Shown here in pieces: positions 24,334 to 31,322 of a stretch of DNA of 33,757 nt. Both the position numbers and the translations under genes were made by a program. Source of the stretch: Alphaproteobacteria bacterium (lineage in GTDB: Bacteria; Pseudomonadota; Alphaproteobacteria; UBA2966); contig JASLXG010000025.1 of the NCBI GenBank assembly GCA_030740435.1, positions 1 through 33,757 of the forward strand, read 5' to 3'. The number at the start of each line of letters is the position of its first letter. Within the stretch, counting starts at the first letter, position 1. The notes beneath the pieces were generated by a model. That model searched no databases, had not been told where the DNA came from, and saw only the letters and a list, made by a program, of their open reading frames with translations.

Positions 24334-24542
24334 ACACCATCCTGGGCCTCCTGATGGCGGCCGTATCGCTGCCGGCGGAACTCATCGCGGTCTTGCACAG
24401 GCGCTACCGACTGGCCTTGGCGGGTTGGCAGATGGTGGCTGTCTCCGACCACCTGCTCGACGACATGGGGCTGAGCCGGCCGGCCATCGTTTCCGGGTTT
24501 CCCCGGGTTCAGGCCACCGAGCGGGGCTCGCCGTCGCGGTAG
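24330..24542 (+). CDS. DUF1127-like small protein
   Basis: 70 residues, ATG at 24330 with AAGGAGG upstream and a 4-bp overlap with the preceding stop. A hydrophobic N-terminus MNTILGLLMAAVSLPAELIAVL is followed by RRYRLALAGWQMVAVSDHLLDDMGLSRPAI, which matches the DUF1127 pattern (basic stretch, W..L..LSD..L.DIGLSR). Some DUF1127 proteins in alphaproteobacteria are small arginine-rich RNA-linked or stress proteins, but this one has an added hydrophobic segment. Its 3' end overlaps the convergent ubiV gene by 34 bp. Confidence 0.75.
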   Translation: MNTILGLLMAAVSLPAELIAVLHRRYRLALAGWQMVAVSDHLLDDMGLSRPAIVSGFPRVQATERGSPSR

Positions 24543-25417
24543 CGCCAGCCTTCGTCGCCGTAATAGAAGCCGTTGGAGAGCGGGGTGTCGAGCAGCGCCT
24601 CGAGCTCGTGCTGGGCCCCCTCGGCCTCGCGCTGGCCGTTGAGCACGGCGCGGAAAAGGTTGGCCACGGCCACCATGTCGGTCATGTGGGGCGAGAGCCG
24701 GAAGTGCTCGACGCCGGCGTGGCGCAACTCCGAGAGCTCGCCGAGCAGCAAGCCGTAGCGGTAACTCAGGGTTTGGGTGCCGTTAACGGCCAAAAAAGCC
24801 TCGCCGTCGAGGGTCTCGACGGTCATGCCGTCGGGATCGTCCTCGCAGACGTACTGGCAGCCGTCCTTGTGCAGGCCGTGGACCCGGGCGTGGTAGCAGC
24901 GCGCCGAGATGGCCAGCGGCAGGCGGCCGAAGACGGCCACCTCGAGGGCCACGCCGCGGCCCGCCAGCGCCGCTATCGAGGCGCCGGGCAATTCATGGGG
25001 CAGGCAGATGCGCTCGGCGCCTTGGCGGGCCAGGTAGTCCACCGTGCCTTCGTTGTAGACGTTGACGAAGGGGCCGATGCAGTGCCGCCGGCCGGCCAGC
25101 AGTGCCGTGCCCCAGAGGTCGTTGGCCTCGATCAGGCGCTCCTCGTCGGCGGCCAGGGCCCTCAGGCTCTCCATCTCGCGCGGGCTCATGATCAGCGCCA
25201 GGGTCGAGATCACCACCTGCTTGCCGGCCGCCTCCAGGCGTTCGATGACGGCGCCCAGCAAGGGTTCGAAAAAGCTCTCGCGCTTGGAGCACACGACCTC
25301 GCCCAGATAGACCGTGTCAAGCGCCGCCTCGTCGGCCATTCGGTAATAGAAATCACGTTTTTGCTCGGCCGGCCAGTTGAAGAGAATGGGCCCGAGGTTA
25401 AGCGCCGGCGCGCTCAT
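24509..25417 (-). CDS. ubiV: UbiV, U32-type iron-sulfur protein for O2-independent ubiquinone synthesis
   Basis: 302 residues. UbiU and UbiV form a 4Fe-4S heterodimer that hydroxylates the ubiquinone ring without O2, using prephenate as oxygen source. The four cluster cysteines are visible: C43 in VVCSKRE, C174 in SARCYHAR, and C187 and C191 in DGCQYVCEDD. The 13- and 4-residue spacings equal those of the E. coli protein (C180, C193, C197 there). Its start overlaps the ubiU stop by 4 bp. Last gene of the ubiT-ubiU-ubiV run. Cytoplasmic. Confidence 0.93.
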   Translation of the reverse strand: MSAPALNLGPILFNWPAEQKRDFYYRMADEAALDTVYLGEVVCSKRESFFEPLLGAVIERLEAAGKQVVISTLALIMSPREMESLRALAADEERLIEANDLWGTALLAGRRHCIGPFVNVYNEGTVDYLARQGAERICLPHELPGASIAALAGRGVALEVAVFGRLPLAISARCYHARVHGLHKDGCQYVCEDDPDGMTVETLDGEAFLAVNGTQTLSYRYGLLLGELSELRHAGVEHFRLSPHMTDMVAVANLFRAVLNGQREAEGAQHELEALLDTPLSNGFYYGDEGWRYRDGEPRSVA

Positions 25418-26403
25418 CGCCAGGCCTTCTCATAGACGCCGGTGGTGCCCTGCTGGCCCTCGCTCAGGTCCTCGAGATCAAGCGCCGGGATGTCCTGCTC
25501 GGCGGCAACGGCGTCGACGGCCTTGCGGAAGGCGGCGACGACGCGGGCGACGTAGGCCTTGCCGCGCTGGCGGCCTTCGATCTTGAGGCCGGTGACGCCG
25601 GCCGCCTGCACCTCGGGCAGCATGGCCTGGACGCTCAGGCTGGTGGGCTCCTCGAAAAGGTAGGAAGCCTCGCCCCGGGCTTTGAAACGGCCCTTGCAGA
25701 GCGTCGGATAGCCCCTGTCCTCGTGCTCGGTGAAGACGTTGACGGTGAATTCGCCGAGTCGGGAGACCAGGCCCTCGGGCCGTTCCTCGTAGTGGGCGTG
25801 GCTGGCTGGCGAGCAGACGCCGCAATTGTTGGGCGACTTGCCGGTGACGTAGGAGGAAAGGGTGCAGCGGCCCTCGGCCATGACGCAGAGGCCGCCGAAG
25901 GCGAAGATCTCGGTCTCGACCTCGATGGCCTGGTTGAGCTCACTGATCTCGGCCAGCGTGAGTACGCGCGGCAGCACCACCCGGCGGACGCCGAACTCGC
26001 GGGCATAGAAGCCGATGGCCTCGGGGTTGGAGGCCGAGGCCTGGACCGAAAGATGGCGCCGCAGCTCGGGCTGGTTTTGGCAGCAGTAATCCAACAGCCC
26101 GATGTCGGCCAGGATCAAGGCATCGGCCCGCAGCGCCGCGGCGTCGTCGACGGCGCGCTGCCAGGGTCCGGGATTGCCGGCCTCGGGATAGGTGTTGACG
26201 GCGACGAAGACGCGGCAGTTGCCGGCGTGGGCGTAAGCAATGCCGGCCCGCAGCTCGTCGCGGCTGAAGTTGAGGCCGGGGAAATTGCGGGCATTGGTCT
26301 CGTCGCGAAACCCCAGATAGACGGTGTCGGCCCCGGCGTCGACGGCGGCCCTCAGTGCCGCCGGGGTGCCGGCCGGGCAGACCAGCTCGAGGGCGGTGCT
26401 CAC
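25414..26403 (-). CDS. ubiU: UbiU, U32-type iron-sulfur protein for O2-independent ubiquinone synthesis
   Basis: 329 residues. N-terminus ELVCPAGTPAALRAAVDAGADTVYLGF is the U32 barrel start. Cysteines at 173 and 180 (GGLCVMAEGRC), 197 (CGVCSP) and 236 (TLCKGRF) fall at a constant +4 offset from the four cluster ligands of E. coli UbiU (169, 176, 193, 232). An extra Cys lies at 194. It is the partner of UbiV in the anaerobic hydroxylation steps. Overlaps ubiT and ubiV by 4 bp on each side, so all three are translationally coupled. The protease annotation common for U32 proteins is misleading here. Confidence 0.94.
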   Translation of the reverse strand: MSTALELVCPAGTPAALRAAVDAGADTVYLGFRDETNARNFPGLNFSRDELRAGIAYAHAGNCRVFVAVNTYPEAGNPGPWQRAVDDAAALRADALILADIGLLDYCCQNQPELRRHLSVQASASNPEAIGFYAREFGVRRVVLPRVLTLAEISELNQAIEVETEIFAFGGLCVMAEGRCTLSSYVTGKSPNNCGVCSPASHAHYEERPEGLVSRLGEFTVNVFTEHEDRGYPTLCKGRFKARGEASYLFEEPTSLSVQAMLPEVQAAGVTGLKIEGRQRGKAYVARVVAAFRKAVDAVAAEQDIPALDLEDLSEGQQGTTGVYEKAWR

Positions 26404-27080
26404 GGCGCCGGCCGCTTGCGCTGCGGCCCTTTGCGCTCTAGATGTTCCAGCCTTTGGCCGAGCCTGGATAACTCGGCGGCCTGGCCGCGGTTTTGTTTCT
26501 CGACGTCTGCCAACAGCGCCCCGCGCAGCGCCGCCAGGTCGGCCGCCGCCCGGCCCAGCAGGGCCTCGGCCCGGGCCGCCAGCAGCCGGGCCAGCGGATT
26601 GAAGGGGCCGAAAAGCGACAGGATGTCGTCGAGCAGATCGATCTCCTCGCCATCGAGCGCGTTGCGCAACGCCACCACGGCCTCGGTATCGCCGTCGATG
26701 ACCAGGGCGCGGGAGAAAAACACGGCATCGCCGTCGAGCCGCCCTTCCATCAAATCTATCAGCGTCAGCAGCGGGCCGCGCACGCTGGCCGTCGCCACCT
26801 CGTCGTCGCCCGGGCGCGCCAGGCGGAGCGAGGGCCGGGCCGCGTCGGGACAGAGCGCCAGGCGGAAGGGCAGGTCGGAGGGATCGATCAGCATCAGCGG
26901 GCAGTCCAGCCCCTCGAGCCGGTCGAACATGGCGGGATGGCGCGCCACCACGGTATCGAGGGCCAGCCGCAACAGGGGATTGAGCACGAAGCCGGGCAGC
27001 GGCCGGGCCAGCATGCCGCCGATCAGGACCGGTGACAGCGGCGCGGCAGTGGCGCTTTGGTGCGGGGCCGATGGGCTCAT
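26400..27080 (-). CDS. ubiT: UbiT, SCP2-domain lipid-binding accessory factor
   Basis: 226 residues. The central part (about 30-140: PLLRLALDTVVARHPAMFDRLEGLDCPLMLIDPSDLPFRLAL... ATASVRGPLLTLIDLMEGRLDGDAVFFSRALVIDGDTEAVVALRNALD) is an SCP2 sterol-carrier-like fold. UbiT binds the hydrophobic ubiquinone intermediates, the anaerobic counterpart of UbiJ. The C-terminal helical tail (LAALRGALLADVEKQNRGQAAELSRLGQRLEHLE) is probably coiled coil. First ubi gene of the set; only 24 bp separate it from the upstream regulator gene on the same strand. No FNR box was recognised in that gap. Confidence 0.9.
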   Translation of the reverse strand: MSPSAPHQSATAAPLSPVLIGGMLARPLPGFVLNPLLRLALDTVVARHPAMFDRLEGLDCPLMLIDPSDLPFRLALCPDAARPSLRLARPGDDEVATASVRGPLLTLIDLMEGRLDGDAVFFSRALVIDGDTEAVVALRNALDGEEIDLLDDILSLFGPFNPLARLLAARAEALLGRAAADLAALRGALLADVEKQNRGQAAELSRLGQRLEHLERKGPQRKRPAP

Positions 27081-27104
27081 GCGGGGTACTCTGTGGCTAC
27101 TCGC

Positions 27105-28007
27105 TCAGGCACTGTTGTAGACCACTTGAGCGCTGTTGGATACGTCGTAGCCGCCCAGTGCCGCCGCCCGTTGGGCAAAGGCCGGGCCCTTCATGAAGGT
27201 CACCAGGGCGCCCAGCGGTGCCTCGAAATAGGCCCGGCGGCGCAGCACCAGATCGCAGCGTTCGGTGTGCAGCGCCACGAAATCGAGGCCCAACTGACGC
27301 GCCACGGCCTCGATGGCGAGGCCGGCGTCGGCATTACCCTCACGCACAGCCAACGCCAGATCGAGCTCGCTACGGCAAGGATCCGCGGCAATGCTCAAAT
27401 CCGCCAGCGCCAGGCCTTTCCGGCCCAGCAGGTATTCCAACAAAACGTGGCTGCCGGCCTGGCGCTGGCGCAGTGCCAGGCGCCGCCCCGGCAGGTCGGC
27501 CAGGCCCTCGATAGCCAGGGGATTGCCGGGCGCCAGCACCAGGCCCTGGCGGCGCCGGGCCCAGGTCAGGGCGACGATGTCGTAGCCGCCCAGGCGCTGG
27601 CGTACCGCCGAAAGCTCGTAACTGCCGGTGTCGGCCTCGACCAGATGCACCAGCGCCGCCGCGGCCTCGCCCGCGGCCAGGCGTTCGATGCCGTCGAGGC
27701 TGCCGCCGGGCAGCATGGCCAGGCCGCAGCCCGAGGCCGCCAGAGACCATTCCAGCAGCGGATCGTGGCTGCCGGCGATGACAGCCGGCGGCGGCGCGGT
27801 GGGCAGGGCCGGGTGGCTCAGCTCGACCCCGGCCAGCACCCAGGCCTCGACCAGGTGGCGGGGAAAGAGCCACTTGCCGGCCACCCGCGAGCAGGGAATG
27901 CGGCGGCGCTGGACGAGATCGTAGACCTTGCGCTGCTTGATGCGCAGGTACTCGGCGACCTCGCCGGTGGACATCATCTCGGGCACGGACGGGCTTGTCG
28001 GCGGCAT
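27105..28007 (-). CDS. HTH regulator with periplasmic-binding-protein-like sensor domain (tungstate/molybdate-type)
   Basis: 300 residues. Residues about 12-60 are an excisionase/MerR-like HTH: STGEVAEYLRIKQRKVYDLVQRRRIPCSRVAGKWLFPRHLVEAW. Residues about 75-285 form a PBP-like domain without signal peptide (AGSHDPLLEW, GSYELSAVRQRLGGYDIVALTW, RRLALRQRQAGSH, AVREGNADAGLAIEAVARQLGLDFV). This architecture occurs next to molybdate/tungstate transport genes. It is divergent from tupBCA, so a tungstate- or molybdate-sensing regulator is likely, and 24 bp upstream of ubiT, so it may be co-transcribed with ubiTUV. Start at 28007 is uncertain: Met11 or Met12 are alternatives. Confidence 0.82.
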   Translation of the reverse strand: MPPTSPSVPEMMSTGEVAEYLRIKQRKVYDLVQRRRIPCSRVAGKWLFPRHLVEAWVLAGVELSHPALPTAPPPAVIAGSHDPLLEWSLAASGCGLAMLPGGSLDGIERLAAGEAAAALVHLVEADTGSYELSAVRQRLGGYDIVALTWARRRQGLVLAPGNPLAIEGLADLPGRRLALRQRQAGSHVLLEYLLGRKGLALADLSIAADPCRSELDLALAVREGNADAGLAIEAVARQLGLDFVALHTERCDLVLRRRAYFEAPLGALVTFMKGPAFAQRAAALGGYDVSNSAQVVYNSA

Positions 28008-28074
28008 GGATCGTCCTACATCAACATGCTACATTCCCTATGATAGACAGATTTGCGAAACATAGCCAGAAATT

Positions 28075-28088
28075 TGCATAAATATGCA
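28075..28088. promoter_or_regulatory. Palindromic candidate operator between the regulator and tupB
   Basis: TGCATAAATATGCA is a perfect inverted repeat (6-bp arms, 2-bp spacer) in the AT-rich part of the divergent region, 67 bp upstream of the regulator start. A related ATTTGC half occurs at 28051-28056 and again at 28072-28077. It could be the binding site of the HTH/PBP regulator. The 28008-28121 interval holds no gene. Confidence 0.45.
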
Positions 28089-28121
28089 CAATACCTTCCC
28101 CCCAGCCCCACGCCGCCCCAA

Positions 28122-28256
28122 AGTTTCGGGGACAGGGACGCTTTTTCACGCGGACAAGAGTTTCGGGGACAGGGACCTAATTAGTTTCGTTCAAGAGTTT
28201 CGGGGACAAGAGTTTCGGGGACAGGGACCTATTTCAGGAGTTTCGGGGACAGGGAC
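28122..28256. repeat. Five-copy array of an 18-bp repeat (AGTTTCGGGGACAGGGAC)
   Basis: Full copies start at 28122, 28159, 28211 and 28239; a 12-bp truncated copy lies at 28196-28207. Copies one and five are followed by GCTTTT, copies two and four by CTAATT or CTATTT, so two alternating variants exist. Spacing is irregular (37, 37, 15 and 28 bp between starts). Sequences of this kind (GGGGACAGGGAC) recur in many bacterial genomes and I associate them with REP/RAYT-type elements, but no transposase is here. The array lies in the 5' leader region of tupB, ending 36 bp before its GTG. Confidence 0.85.
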
Positions 28257-28292
28257 GCTTTTATTCCTATTTTTTCGCCAGGGGCCGGGGCG

Positions 28293-28994
28293 GTGAGTTC
28301 GGGCGACAACGCGCTGGCCACGGCGTTTTCGCTGATCGCCGGGCTGGACGCGGACTTGGTGGCCATCGTCGGGCTGTCGCTGCGGGTCAGCCTGACGGCG
28401 GTGGCGCTGGGCGCCTTGGTCGGCCTGCCGCTGGGCGCCGCCGTGGCGCTCTTTCGCTTTCCCGGCCGGGCCTCCGTGGCGGCGCTGCTCAGCGCCATGA
28501 TGGGTCTGCCGCCGGTGGTGCTGGGCCTGATGGTCTACCTGGCGCTGTCGCGCTCGGGGCCGCTGGGCGTCTTCGGGCTGCTGTTCACGCCCGGTGCCAT
28601 GATCATCGCCCAGTTTTTTCTCGTCATCCCCATCATCGCTTCGCTCAGCCGCCAGGTCGTCGAGGATCTTTGGGCCGATTACGAGGAGCCGCTGCGCTCG
28701 CTCGGCGCCGGCCCCGGCCGGGCCCTGCCGACCTTGCTGTGGGACGGCCGCTTCAGCCTGCTGACCGCCGTTCTGGCCGGCTTCGGCCGGGCCAGCGCCG
28801 AGGTCGGCGCGGTGATGATCGTCGGCGGCAACATCGACCAGGTAACGCGGGTCATGACCACGGCCATCGCGCTGGAGACCTCCAAGGGCAATCTCGAATT
28901 GGCTCTGGGGCTGGGCATCGTGCTGCTCGGCCTCAGCCTGGGCGTCAATCTGCTGGCCTTTGCCGGCAGTGCTGCGGCCCGGCGGCTGGGCTGA
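28293..28994 (+). CDS. tupB: Tungstate ABC transporter permease (TupB-like)
   Basis: 233 residues, GTG start. Multiple hydrophobic segments (about 22-50, 60-80, 85-120, 165-185, 200-228) form the inner-membrane channel. The cytoplasmic EAA loop is visible as YEEPLRSLGAGPGRALPTLLW, which docks on the ATPase. Typical TupB text includes GLPPVVLGLMVYLALSRSGPLG and EVGAVMIVGGNIDQVTRVMTTAI. Followed after 3 bp by the ATPase and then by the binding protein. Molybdate cannot be excluded as substrate, but the TupA match favours tungstate. Confidence 0.9.
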   Translation: MSSGDNALATAFSLIAGLDADLVAIVGLSLRVSLTAVALGALVGLPLGAAVALFRFPGRASVAALLSAMMGLPPVVLGLMVYLALSRSGPLGVFGLLFTPGAMIIAQFFLVIPIIASLSRQVVEDLWADYEEPLRSLGAGPGRALPTLLWDGRFSLLTAVLAGFGRASAEVGAVMIVGGNIDQVTRVMTTAIALETSKGNLELALGLGIVLLGLSLGVNLLAFAGSAAARRLG

Positions 28995-28997
28995 GCC

Positions 28998-29711
28998 ATG
29001 GTGGCCTCGATCCTGCCGCTGGAGGTAGCGCAACTGGGCTTCTCGGCCGGTGGCGCGCAACTGCTCGAGGGCGTCGGATTTGTTCTCAATGCGGGCAGCC
29101 GCTCGATCATCCTGGGGGCCAACGGGGCCGGCAAGAGCCTGACGCTGAGGCTCTGCCACGGTTTGCTGGCGCCCAGCCAGGGCCAGGTGCGCTGGCAACG
29201 TCCGGCGGCCGAGGCGGCCCGGCACCAGGCCATGGTCTTTCAGCGCCCGGTGCTGCTGCGCCGCTCCGCGGCGGCCAACGTAAGCTATGGTTTGGCGCTC
29301 AGGGGCGTGCCTCGCGGCCGACGCCGGCGCCTGGTGGCGGAAGCCCTGGAGGTGGCCGGCCTGGGCGCCCTGGCCGGCCGGCCGGCAGGCTCGCTTTCGG
29401 GCGGCGAACAACAACGCCTGGCCCTGGCCCGGGCCTGGGCGCTGGGGCCCGAGGTGCTGTTCCTCGACGAGCCCACGGCCAGCCTCGACCCGGCCGGCAC
29501 CCGCGCCGTCGAGGCGCTGATCGATGCTTTCCACCGGGGCGGTGCCAAGATCGTCATGACCACCCACGACCTGGCCCAGGCCCGCAGACTGGCCGACGAG
29601 GTGCTGTTCTTCCACCAGGGCCGGTTGTTGGAGCAATCGCCGGCGGCACGCTTCTTCGCTGGGCCCAGCAGCCTGGTGGCGCGGCGCTTCCTGGCAGGTG
29701 AAGTGGTATGA
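28998..29711 (+). CDS. tupC: Tungstate ABC transporter ATPase (TupC-like)
   Basis: 237 residues. Walker A is GANGAGKS, the signature is LSGGEQQRLALARAWALG, Walker B is VLFLDEPTASLD, and the switch His is in TTHDLAQARRLADEV. It powers import through TupB. No C-terminal regulatory (TOBE/Mop) domain is present, in line with TupC and unlike ModC. The tupA ATG overlaps its stop (ATGA). Confidence 0.9.
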   Translation: MVASILPLEVAQLGFSAGGAQLLEGVGFVLNAGSRSIILGANGAGKSLTLRLCHGLLAPSQGQVRWQRPAAEAARHQAMVFQRPVLLRRSAAANVSYGLALRGVPRGRRRRLVAEALEVAGLGALAGRPAGSLSGGEQQRLALARAWALGPEVLFLDEPTASLDPAGTRAVEALIDAFHRGGAKIVMTTHDLAQARRLADEVLFFHQGRLLEQSPAARFFAGPSSLVARRFLAGEVV

Positions 29712-30550
29712 AGCGGGCACTTTTCCTGGTTGCCCTGTTGCTCGCCTGGCCTGCCGGGGCGGCTCTGGCGGCCGATCGCTTCATCGTCCTGGCCTCGACC
29801 ACGTCGACCGAAAACTCAGGCTTGCTGGCCGACCTCCTGCCCCGCTTCCGGGCCCACAGCGGCATATCCGTGCGCGTCGTCGCCGTCGGCACGGGGGGGG
29901 CGCTACGTCTCGGCGCGCGCGGCGATGCCGACGTCGTGCTGGTGCACAGCCGCCGGGCCGAGCTCGATTTCGTGGCCGCCGGCCACGGCGTCGAGCGCCG
30001 CGAAGTGATGACCAACGACTTCGTCATCGTGGGACCGGTAGGGGATCCGGCCCGGGCCGCCGGCGCGGACGTGCTGCGGGCCTTGCGCCGCATTGTCGGC
30101 CGGCCCTTTGTTTCGCGCGGCGACGACAGCGGCACCCACAAAAAAGAACTTGGCCTCTGGCGTGCCGCCGGCCTCGACCCCACAGGGGGCGCTACAGGCG
30201 CAGCTTCGGCCGCCGGCGTTTGGTATCTCGAATCCGGTTCCGGCATGGGAGCGACGCTCAATCTGGCCGCCGCCAAGGACGCCTATGCGCTGGCCGACCG
30301 CGCCACCTGGCTGGCGTTTGGCAACCGGCGCGGCCTCGGCCTGCTGGTGGCCGGCGACAAGCGCTTGCTGAACGTTTACGGCGTCATGCTGGTCAACCCG
30401 GCCCGCCACCCGGTCAAGGCCGCCGAGGGCCGGGCTTTCATGGCCTGGCTGATGAGCGAAGGCCAGGCCGCAATCGGGGCTTTCCGGATCAAGGGCCAGC
30501 AGGCATTCTGGCCACAGGAAGCAAAAACTGGAGCGGATCTCGACAAATGA
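29708..30550 (+). CDS. tupA: Tungstate-binding periplasmic protein (TupA-like)
   Basis: 280 residues with signal peptide MKRALFLVALLLAWPAGAALA cleaved before ADRF. The mature start has VLASTTSTENSGLLADLLPRF, the TupA oxyanion-binding Thr/Ser cluster, followed by VVAVGTGGALRLGARGDADVVLVHSR and FVSRGDDSGTHKKEL, the second binding region. It ends with IKGQQAFWPQ. TupA proteins bind tungstate far more tightly than molybdate. Last gene of the tup operon; the methyltransferase follows after 22 bp. Confidence 0.92.
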   Translation: MKRALFLVALLLAWPAGAALAADRFIVLASTTSTENSGLLADLLPRFRAHSGISVRVVAVGTGGALRLGARGDADVVLVHSRRAELDFVAAGHGVERREVMTNDFVIVGPVGDPARAAGADVLRALRRIVGRPFVSRGDDSGTHKKELGLWRAAGLDPTGGATGAASAAGVWYLESGSGMGATLNLAAAKDAYALADRATWLAFGNRRGLGLLVAGDKRLLNVYGVMLVNPARHPVKAAEGRAFMAWLMSEGQAAIGAFRIKGQQAFWPQEAKTGADLDK

Positions 30551-30572: not shown

Positions 30573-31322
30573 ATGAGCCTGGCCGACGAAAGCTTGAGAC
30601 AGGACGCCTGGCGCCCGTTCGACGCCATGCTCGAGAAAATCCCGCTGAGCGATGGCCAGCGCGTGCTCGATTTGGGTTGCGCTGCCGGCACGGTGGCGGC
30701 CCGCCTGGCGGTGCGCGGCGCCGAGGTGCTGGGCGTGGATCGCGACAACCTGGCGCTCAAGGAAGCGCGCCAGAGGGTCCCCGGGGCCCGGTTCTTGAAT
30801 GCCGACCTGGCCACGCTGGAGCTCATTGAGCCACCTTTCGACGGCCTTTGGTCGAGCTTCGCGGCGGCCTATTTTCCCGACTTTGGGCCGGTATTGCAGC
30901 GCTGGCTCAGTCATCTCGCACCCGGTGCCTGGCTCGCCCTGGTGGAAATCGAAGCCATGTTCGAGCACCGCCCGCTGGACGAAAACGCCCGGGCCGCGCT
31001 GGCCGAATTCGCCACCGAGATGCAGGCCCAGGGGCGTTACGATTTCGACATGGGATCGAAGCTCGCGGGCTTTTGCACCGCCGCCGGCCTCGAGGCGGTG
31101 GAGAGCTCGAACTGGGCCGACGCCGAGCTTGCTTTCCAGGGCCGGGCGGCACCCGACGTGCTGGAAGCCTGGCGGCGGCGCTTCGCCCGCCTCACGGCCA
31201 TGCGCGAATTCCTCGGCCAGGCCCGCTTCGTGGCCAGCCGTGAGGCCCTGCTGCACAGCCTGGCCGCCCCCGACCACGAAGCCGGGGCCGGCGTCACCAT
31301 GGTCCTGGCCCGCAAACCCTAA
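30573..31322 (+). CDS. Class I SAM-dependent methyltransferase
   Basis: 249 residues. Motif I is VLDLGCAAGTVAARLAVRGAEVLGVDRDN (about residues 31-59), with the acidic post-I residue Asp in GVDRD, then FLNADLATLEL (motif II region) and the PPFDGLWSSFAAAYFPDFGPVLQRWLSHLAPGAWLALVEIE block. GGAGG precedes the ATG by 7 bp. It may be read through from tupA, but its role is not obvious from that context; the acceptor is unknown. Confidence 0.88.
   Translation: MSLADESLRQDAWRPFDAMLEKIPLSDGQRVLDLGCAAGTVAARLAVRGAEVLGVDRDNLALKEARQRVPGARFLNADLATLELIEPPFDGLWSSFAAAYFPDFGPVLQRWLSHLAPGAWLALVEIEAMFEHRPLDENARAALAEFATEMQAQGRYDFDMGSKLAGFCTAAGLEAVESSNWADAELAFQGRAAPDVLEAWRRRFARLTAMREFLGQARFVASREALLHSLAAPDHEAGAGVTMVLARKP

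Follow-up and report, generated by a model that had tools for sequence, protein, structure and literature searches.

The genes ubiT, ubiU and ubiV, which serve the oxygen-independent synthesis of ubiquinone, are generally thought to be switched on by FNR as oxygen falls. FNR control of ubiTUV has been proven in E. coli (PMC10470549), and FNR sites are reported for 87% of ubiTUV triplets, making them common but not universal (PMC11707229). A second group of related systems concerns oxyanions and their uptake; TunR is a tungstate regulator of Desulfovibrio. In Methylorubrum extorquens, tupBCA is tied genomically to tungsten use within a moeA1-mobB-tupBCA cluster (PMC13197769), and for ModE the operator consensus is ATCGCTATATA-N6-TATATAACGAT (PMC2700814). 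Our literature searches returned no link between tungstate or molybdate and ubiTUV, nothing on the regulator considered here, and no published binding site for its family, the HTH_17-PBP_like regulators.

The window analysed here is a stretch of 33,757 nucleotides, contig C25 of a metagenome-assembled genome (G000; 4.5 Mb, 236 contigs, 98.6% complete). Its minus strand carries a regulator gene, a short gap and then ubiT, ubiU and ubiV, the latter joined by two overlaps; tupBCA lies divergently on the plus strand (Table 1). The products of all three colocalised ubi genes exceed their NCBIfam equivalog cut-offs in a profile search. The arrangement described in the original prediction, a regulator with an excisionase-like HTH and a PBP-like domain, located 24 bp upstream of ubiT on the same strand and divergent from tupBCA, is confirmed by the coordinates as well as by the Pfam matches. 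A methyltransferase gene (window 30573-31322) follows 22 bp after tupA, an order shared with a second species of the genus (G001), and possibly belongs to the tup operon.

Table 1. Features of the regulator-ubiTUV/tupBCA locus (coordinates refer to the window).
Feature	Position	Strand	Description and evidence
ubiV	24509..25417	-	O2-independent ubiquinone hydroxylation protein; NCBIfam NF047965, 357.6 bits (cut-off 275)
ubiU	25414..26403	-	UbiV partner; 4-bp overlap with ubiV; NCBIfam NF047963, 505.9 bits (cut-off 440)
ubiT	26400..27080	-	SCP2-domain accessory factor; 4-bp overlap with ubiU; NCBIfam NF047962, 61.5 bits (cut-off 46.9); Pfam SCP2
Regulator-ubiT gap (stop to start codon)	27081..27104	-	24 bp; equally long in G001
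Regulator	27105..27986	-	Excisionase-type HTH and PBP_like sensor; Pfam PF12728 (HTH_17), PF12727 (PBP_like); longest ORF from 28007
Probable operator TGCATAAATATGCA (TGCA-N6-TGCA)	28075..28088	undefined	Sole copy in the genome; motif enriched in relatives
Five imperfect AGTTTCGGGGACAGGGAC copies	28112..28262	+	Between operator and tupB; outside the conserved core
tupB-like ABC permease	28293..28994	+	NF038017 ABC_perm1, 247.7 bits (cut-off 100); TupB equivalog 162.6 (cut-off 320)
tupC-like ABC ATPase	28998..29711	+	Pfam ABC_tran
tupA-like periplasmic oxyanion-binding protein	29708..30550	+	STTS and SRGDDSGT motifs; phmmer to 3lr1 (E 9e-57) and 5my5 (E 8e-54)

Besides HTH_17 and PBP_like, the regulator has only a weak Pfam match to Phosphonate-bd; its AlphaFold2 model reaches a pLDDT of 93.5, and a sequence search of the PDB gave no match for the family. 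Because G001 reads ACG where ATG 28007 stands, while GTG 27986 is present in both aligned genomes, the latter is the more likely start codon. The protein is 87% identical between the two species. Synonymous changes abound in the middle of the gene and towards its 3' end, where this comparison of synonymous sites shows no conserved signal, and they are lowest in the HTH codons. We note that window positions 27760-27911 (regulator codons 26-75) show very few synonymous differences, unlike the middle of the gene.

The original prediction spoke of a tungstate-type regulator and of tupBCA, and this naming holds in part. The solved structures nearest to TupA are tungstate-binding TupA proteins, and of the binding residues described for TupABC (TTTS motif, R118, T124) the arginine and the threonine are kept, with STTS in place of TTTS. 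Yet TupA (185.4 bits, cut-off 400) and TupB both miss the tungstate equivalog cut-offs. Tungstate is therefore the likely substrate.

A survey of the class covered 385 genomes, 10 of which have a UbiU as well as the regulator; in the nine others of these 10 the two sit on different contigs (in one of the nine, G240, the contig with the ubi genes stops short of ubiT). Linkage of the regulator to ubiTUV was found only in the genus of G000, namely in G000 itself and in its congener G001, where both the order and the length of the gap are kept and the gap sequence has diverged. G001 carries the locus on two contigs that differ at 69 of 3201 positions and probably represent two strains; locus L013 was taken as the same record as one of them (contig C142). 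G002 and G003, two genomes of the same family, have ubiTUV and lack the regulator. Outside the genus, none of 79 regulator loci contains ubi genes, and neither the regulator nor tup genes stand beside ubiT in any of 37 other ubiTUV loci. Genes of the tup transporter, in contrast, fall within the examined stretch at 39 of the 79 regulator loci, many of these stretches ending at contig ends. The pairing of regulator and tup thus appears to be old and widespread, and that of regulator and ubiTUV confined to this genus. The order is hence not conserved across alphaproteobacteria, a result close to the single-genome occurrence that the original prediction would have held against itself, although G001, the only congener available, keeps it too.

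The regulator is linked to other genes of oxyanion metabolism in other species, where it is found near fdsGBA, fdhD, moaA and the gene of a MOT1-type transporter. At such loci fdhD can follow it on the same strand, as can a gene for a MOT1-type molybdate transporter or for a flavoprotein subunit of formate dehydrogenase; the regulator therefore does carry oxyanion-related cargo elsewhere. In many other loci, however, its downstream gene is unrelated (GGDEF/EAL, PP-loop or lipoyl-ligase-like), so adjacency alone means little.

A candidate binding site lies between the regulator gene and tupB. The palindrome TGCATAAATATGCA is identical in G001, while the surrounding repeats differ, and is the only match with at most one mismatch in each of the two genomes. 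Among regulator-carrying loci, TGCA-N6-TGCA precedes tupB in 13 of 36 (0.08 expected) and the regulator in 9 of 80 (0.27 expected); it precedes tupA in 0 of 39, and is found before 0 of 37 other ubiT genes. Searching the 80 loci for the full palindrome with up to two mismatches gave 13 hits near or upstream of regulator starts, compared to a mean of 0.5 and a maximum of 3 for shuffled arms, and the pattern occurs exactly upstream of tupB in L054. Some loci contain three TGCA elements at 10-bp steps; since excisionase-type HTH binding suits sites one helical turn apart (PMC7498355), such a spacing would suit this regulator. We consider TGCATAAATATGCA probably to be its operator. Two further observations concern repeats and distant sites. 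The AGTTTCGGGGACAGGGAC repeat set is shorter and different in G001, and GGGGACAGGGAC is found nowhere else in the window. In three Methylotuvimicrobium/Methylomicrobium loci (L046, L055, L058) fdsG is preceded at a distance of about 117 bp by AACATATTTATGCA, which deviates from the operator at two positions; this suggests that the regulator also controls formate dehydrogenase there.

With respect to the usual control of ubiTUV, FNR boxes were scored out of 10 against the strict consensus, and scores of at least 9 were counted as a box. No box was found within 450 bp upstream of ubiT, the best scores (7/10 in G000, 6/10 in G001) being at chance level, while G002 and G003 have perfect 10/10 boxes at -64 and -66 from ubiT. 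Because only 16 of the 37 other loci reach at least 9/10 upstream of ubiT, the missing box is weak evidence when taken alone. The gap between the regulator and ubiT is too short to hold a separate ubiT promoter. Such a promoter or a terminator would have spoken against the predicted co-transcription, and the gap length and the lack of a terminator-like site in our scan argue against either. A sigma-70 and terminator scan of 26950-28400 found nothing anywhere; it lends weak support, as it is blind to GC-rich alphaproteobacterial promoters and also finds none for the regulator itself.

Taken together, the most economical account is a lineage-specific promoter replacement, in which the regulator's own unit, with its operator at the head, would stand in place of the FNR promoter of ubiTUV. 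The regulator and ubiTUV would form one four-gene transcription unit in this genus, divergent from tupBCA; the gap length kept in the congener despite sequence divergence supports a single unit, and the restriction of the order to two metagenome-assembled genomes of one genus speaks against it. The regulator would bind TGCA-N6-TGCA through its excisionase-type HTH, with the PBP-like domain as its sensor for tungstate or molybdate. Acting from this single site, it would control, by activation or repression, both the divergent tup transporter and its own operon, in which ubiTUV is carried as cargo. Relatives have an FNR promoter before ubiT, a position held here by the regulator gene, and oxygen-independent ubiquinone synthesis would then follow oxyanion status or the level of the autoregulated regulator, either replacing direct FNR control or adding to it. 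We regard the four-gene unit under an oxyanion regulator as about evenly balanced between true and false. The stronger version is more tentative: here ubiTUV would have lost the FNR promoter and become tungstate- or molybdate-responsive, such that anaerobic ubiquinone is made only when metal for Mo/W enzymes is available. The coupling of oxyanion availability to anaerobic ubiquinone synthesis, as put forward in the original prediction, is thus plausible but local: the lack of promoter room, the absent FNR box and the candidate operator argue for it, its occurrence in this genus only against it.

The main rival is chance adjacency, according to which the ancestor of the genus acquired the regulator/tup pair beside ubiT by a move of that pair and the ubiTUV promoter lies inside the regulator gene, leaving at most read-through and no functional coupling. 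The limitation of the linkage to one genus and the varying downstream neighbours of the regulator among relatives fit this explanation, as does the inability of promoter scans to recognise GC-rich alphaproteobacterial promoters. It accounts poorly for a gap that stayed at 24 bp in the two species while its sequence changed and for the lack of an FNR box up to 450 bp upstream of ubiT, and the frequent synonymous changes across the middle of the regulator gene and towards its 3' end leave no conserved internal signal visible there; we consider it rather unlikely. Less probable still is that FNR or another redox regulator acts at the promoter of the regulator, with anaerobiosis driving both ubiTUV and the oxyanion regulator. 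As a rule ubiTUV is under FNR control (PMC10470549, PMC11707229), and G001 has an FNR-like site upstream of the regulator (TTGATCTAGAACAA, 9/10, a score reached by 5 of 1000 shuffles). G000 reads TTGATGTAGGACGA at the aligned position, however, and its best match in that region is 7/10, no better than chance; the G001 site is moreover too near the start codon for the standard activating position. Such an FNR site at the regulator promoter is not conserved between the two species, and control through it is considered improbable.

A further alternative concerns the signal: the PBP-like domain might sense molybdate, sulfite-like anions or a pterin instead of tungstate, and the transporter might move more than one oxyanion. 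According to Foldseek, the sensor domain resembles LysR effector domains, among which are anion sensors such as the sulfite-sensing YeiE, without specific closeness to TupA or ModA. Its best NCBIfam match is a MoeA fusion protein, and the sub-threshold TupA and TupB scores point the same way. That the regulator stands with tupBCA at 39 of the 79 loci outside the genus, and elsewhere with genes of W/Mo formate dehydrogenases, argues for tungstate, as do the arginine and threonine retained in the tungstate site of TupA. A ligand other than tungstate is therefore possible, and we would not favour it.

The genomic setting agrees with the expectation that such a link makes sense in a cell with Mo- or W-enzymes. 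Mo/W-bisPGD enzymes are numerous in G000 as judged by its 19 matches to PF00384, of which a part may represent NuoG or fragments. Among them are the alpha subunit of a formate dehydrogenase, which passes its cut-off, a reductase of the TMAO/DMSO type and a protein resembling arsenite oxidase. A search of G000 found neither a TIGR01988-type flavin ubiquinone hydroxylase nor COQ7. In G001 the search gave a single TIGR01988 protein and neither COQ7 nor a UbiA that passes its cut-off. These absences may be gaps in the assembled genomes, or may reflect reliance on the oxygen-independent route.

A metal-oxyanion sensor gene located where relatives have an FNR site suggests that, in one genus of uncultured marine bacteria, ubiTUV may have been rewired to tungstate/molybdate supply. 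If true, the genus would offer a natural example in which the supply of quinone is coupled to that of a metal cofactor, an oxyanion regulator having replaced an FNR box. The TGCA-N6-TGCA motif also gives a predicted operator for a regulator family that is widespread and associated with the uptake of tungstate and with W/Mo formate dehydrogenases.

Compared to described systems, the locus combines familiar parts in a different arrangement. It shares the T-U-V order on one strand with the 37 other alphaproteobacterial ubiTUV loci; it differs from the known FNR-controlled ones, which have an FNR promoter before ubiT, by the regulator gene at this position. In M. extorquens tup is tied to cofactor assembly, whereas its neighbour here is quinone biosynthesis. 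The regulator resembles ModE in a presumed oxyanion-responsive control of oxyanion uptake; the HTH and sensor domains differ, ModE-type HTH and TOBE/Mop domains were not found in it, and the ModE operator is distinct from TGCA-N6-TGCA. The closest counterparts are the HTH_17-PBP_like regulators beside tupABC in Alpha-, Beta- and Gammaproteobacteria, with which our locus shares both domains, the tup neighbour and TGCA-N6-TGCA before tupB; those regulators lead into fdhD, MOT1, a formate dehydrogenase subunit gene or unrelated genes, whereas the one described here continues into ubiTUV.
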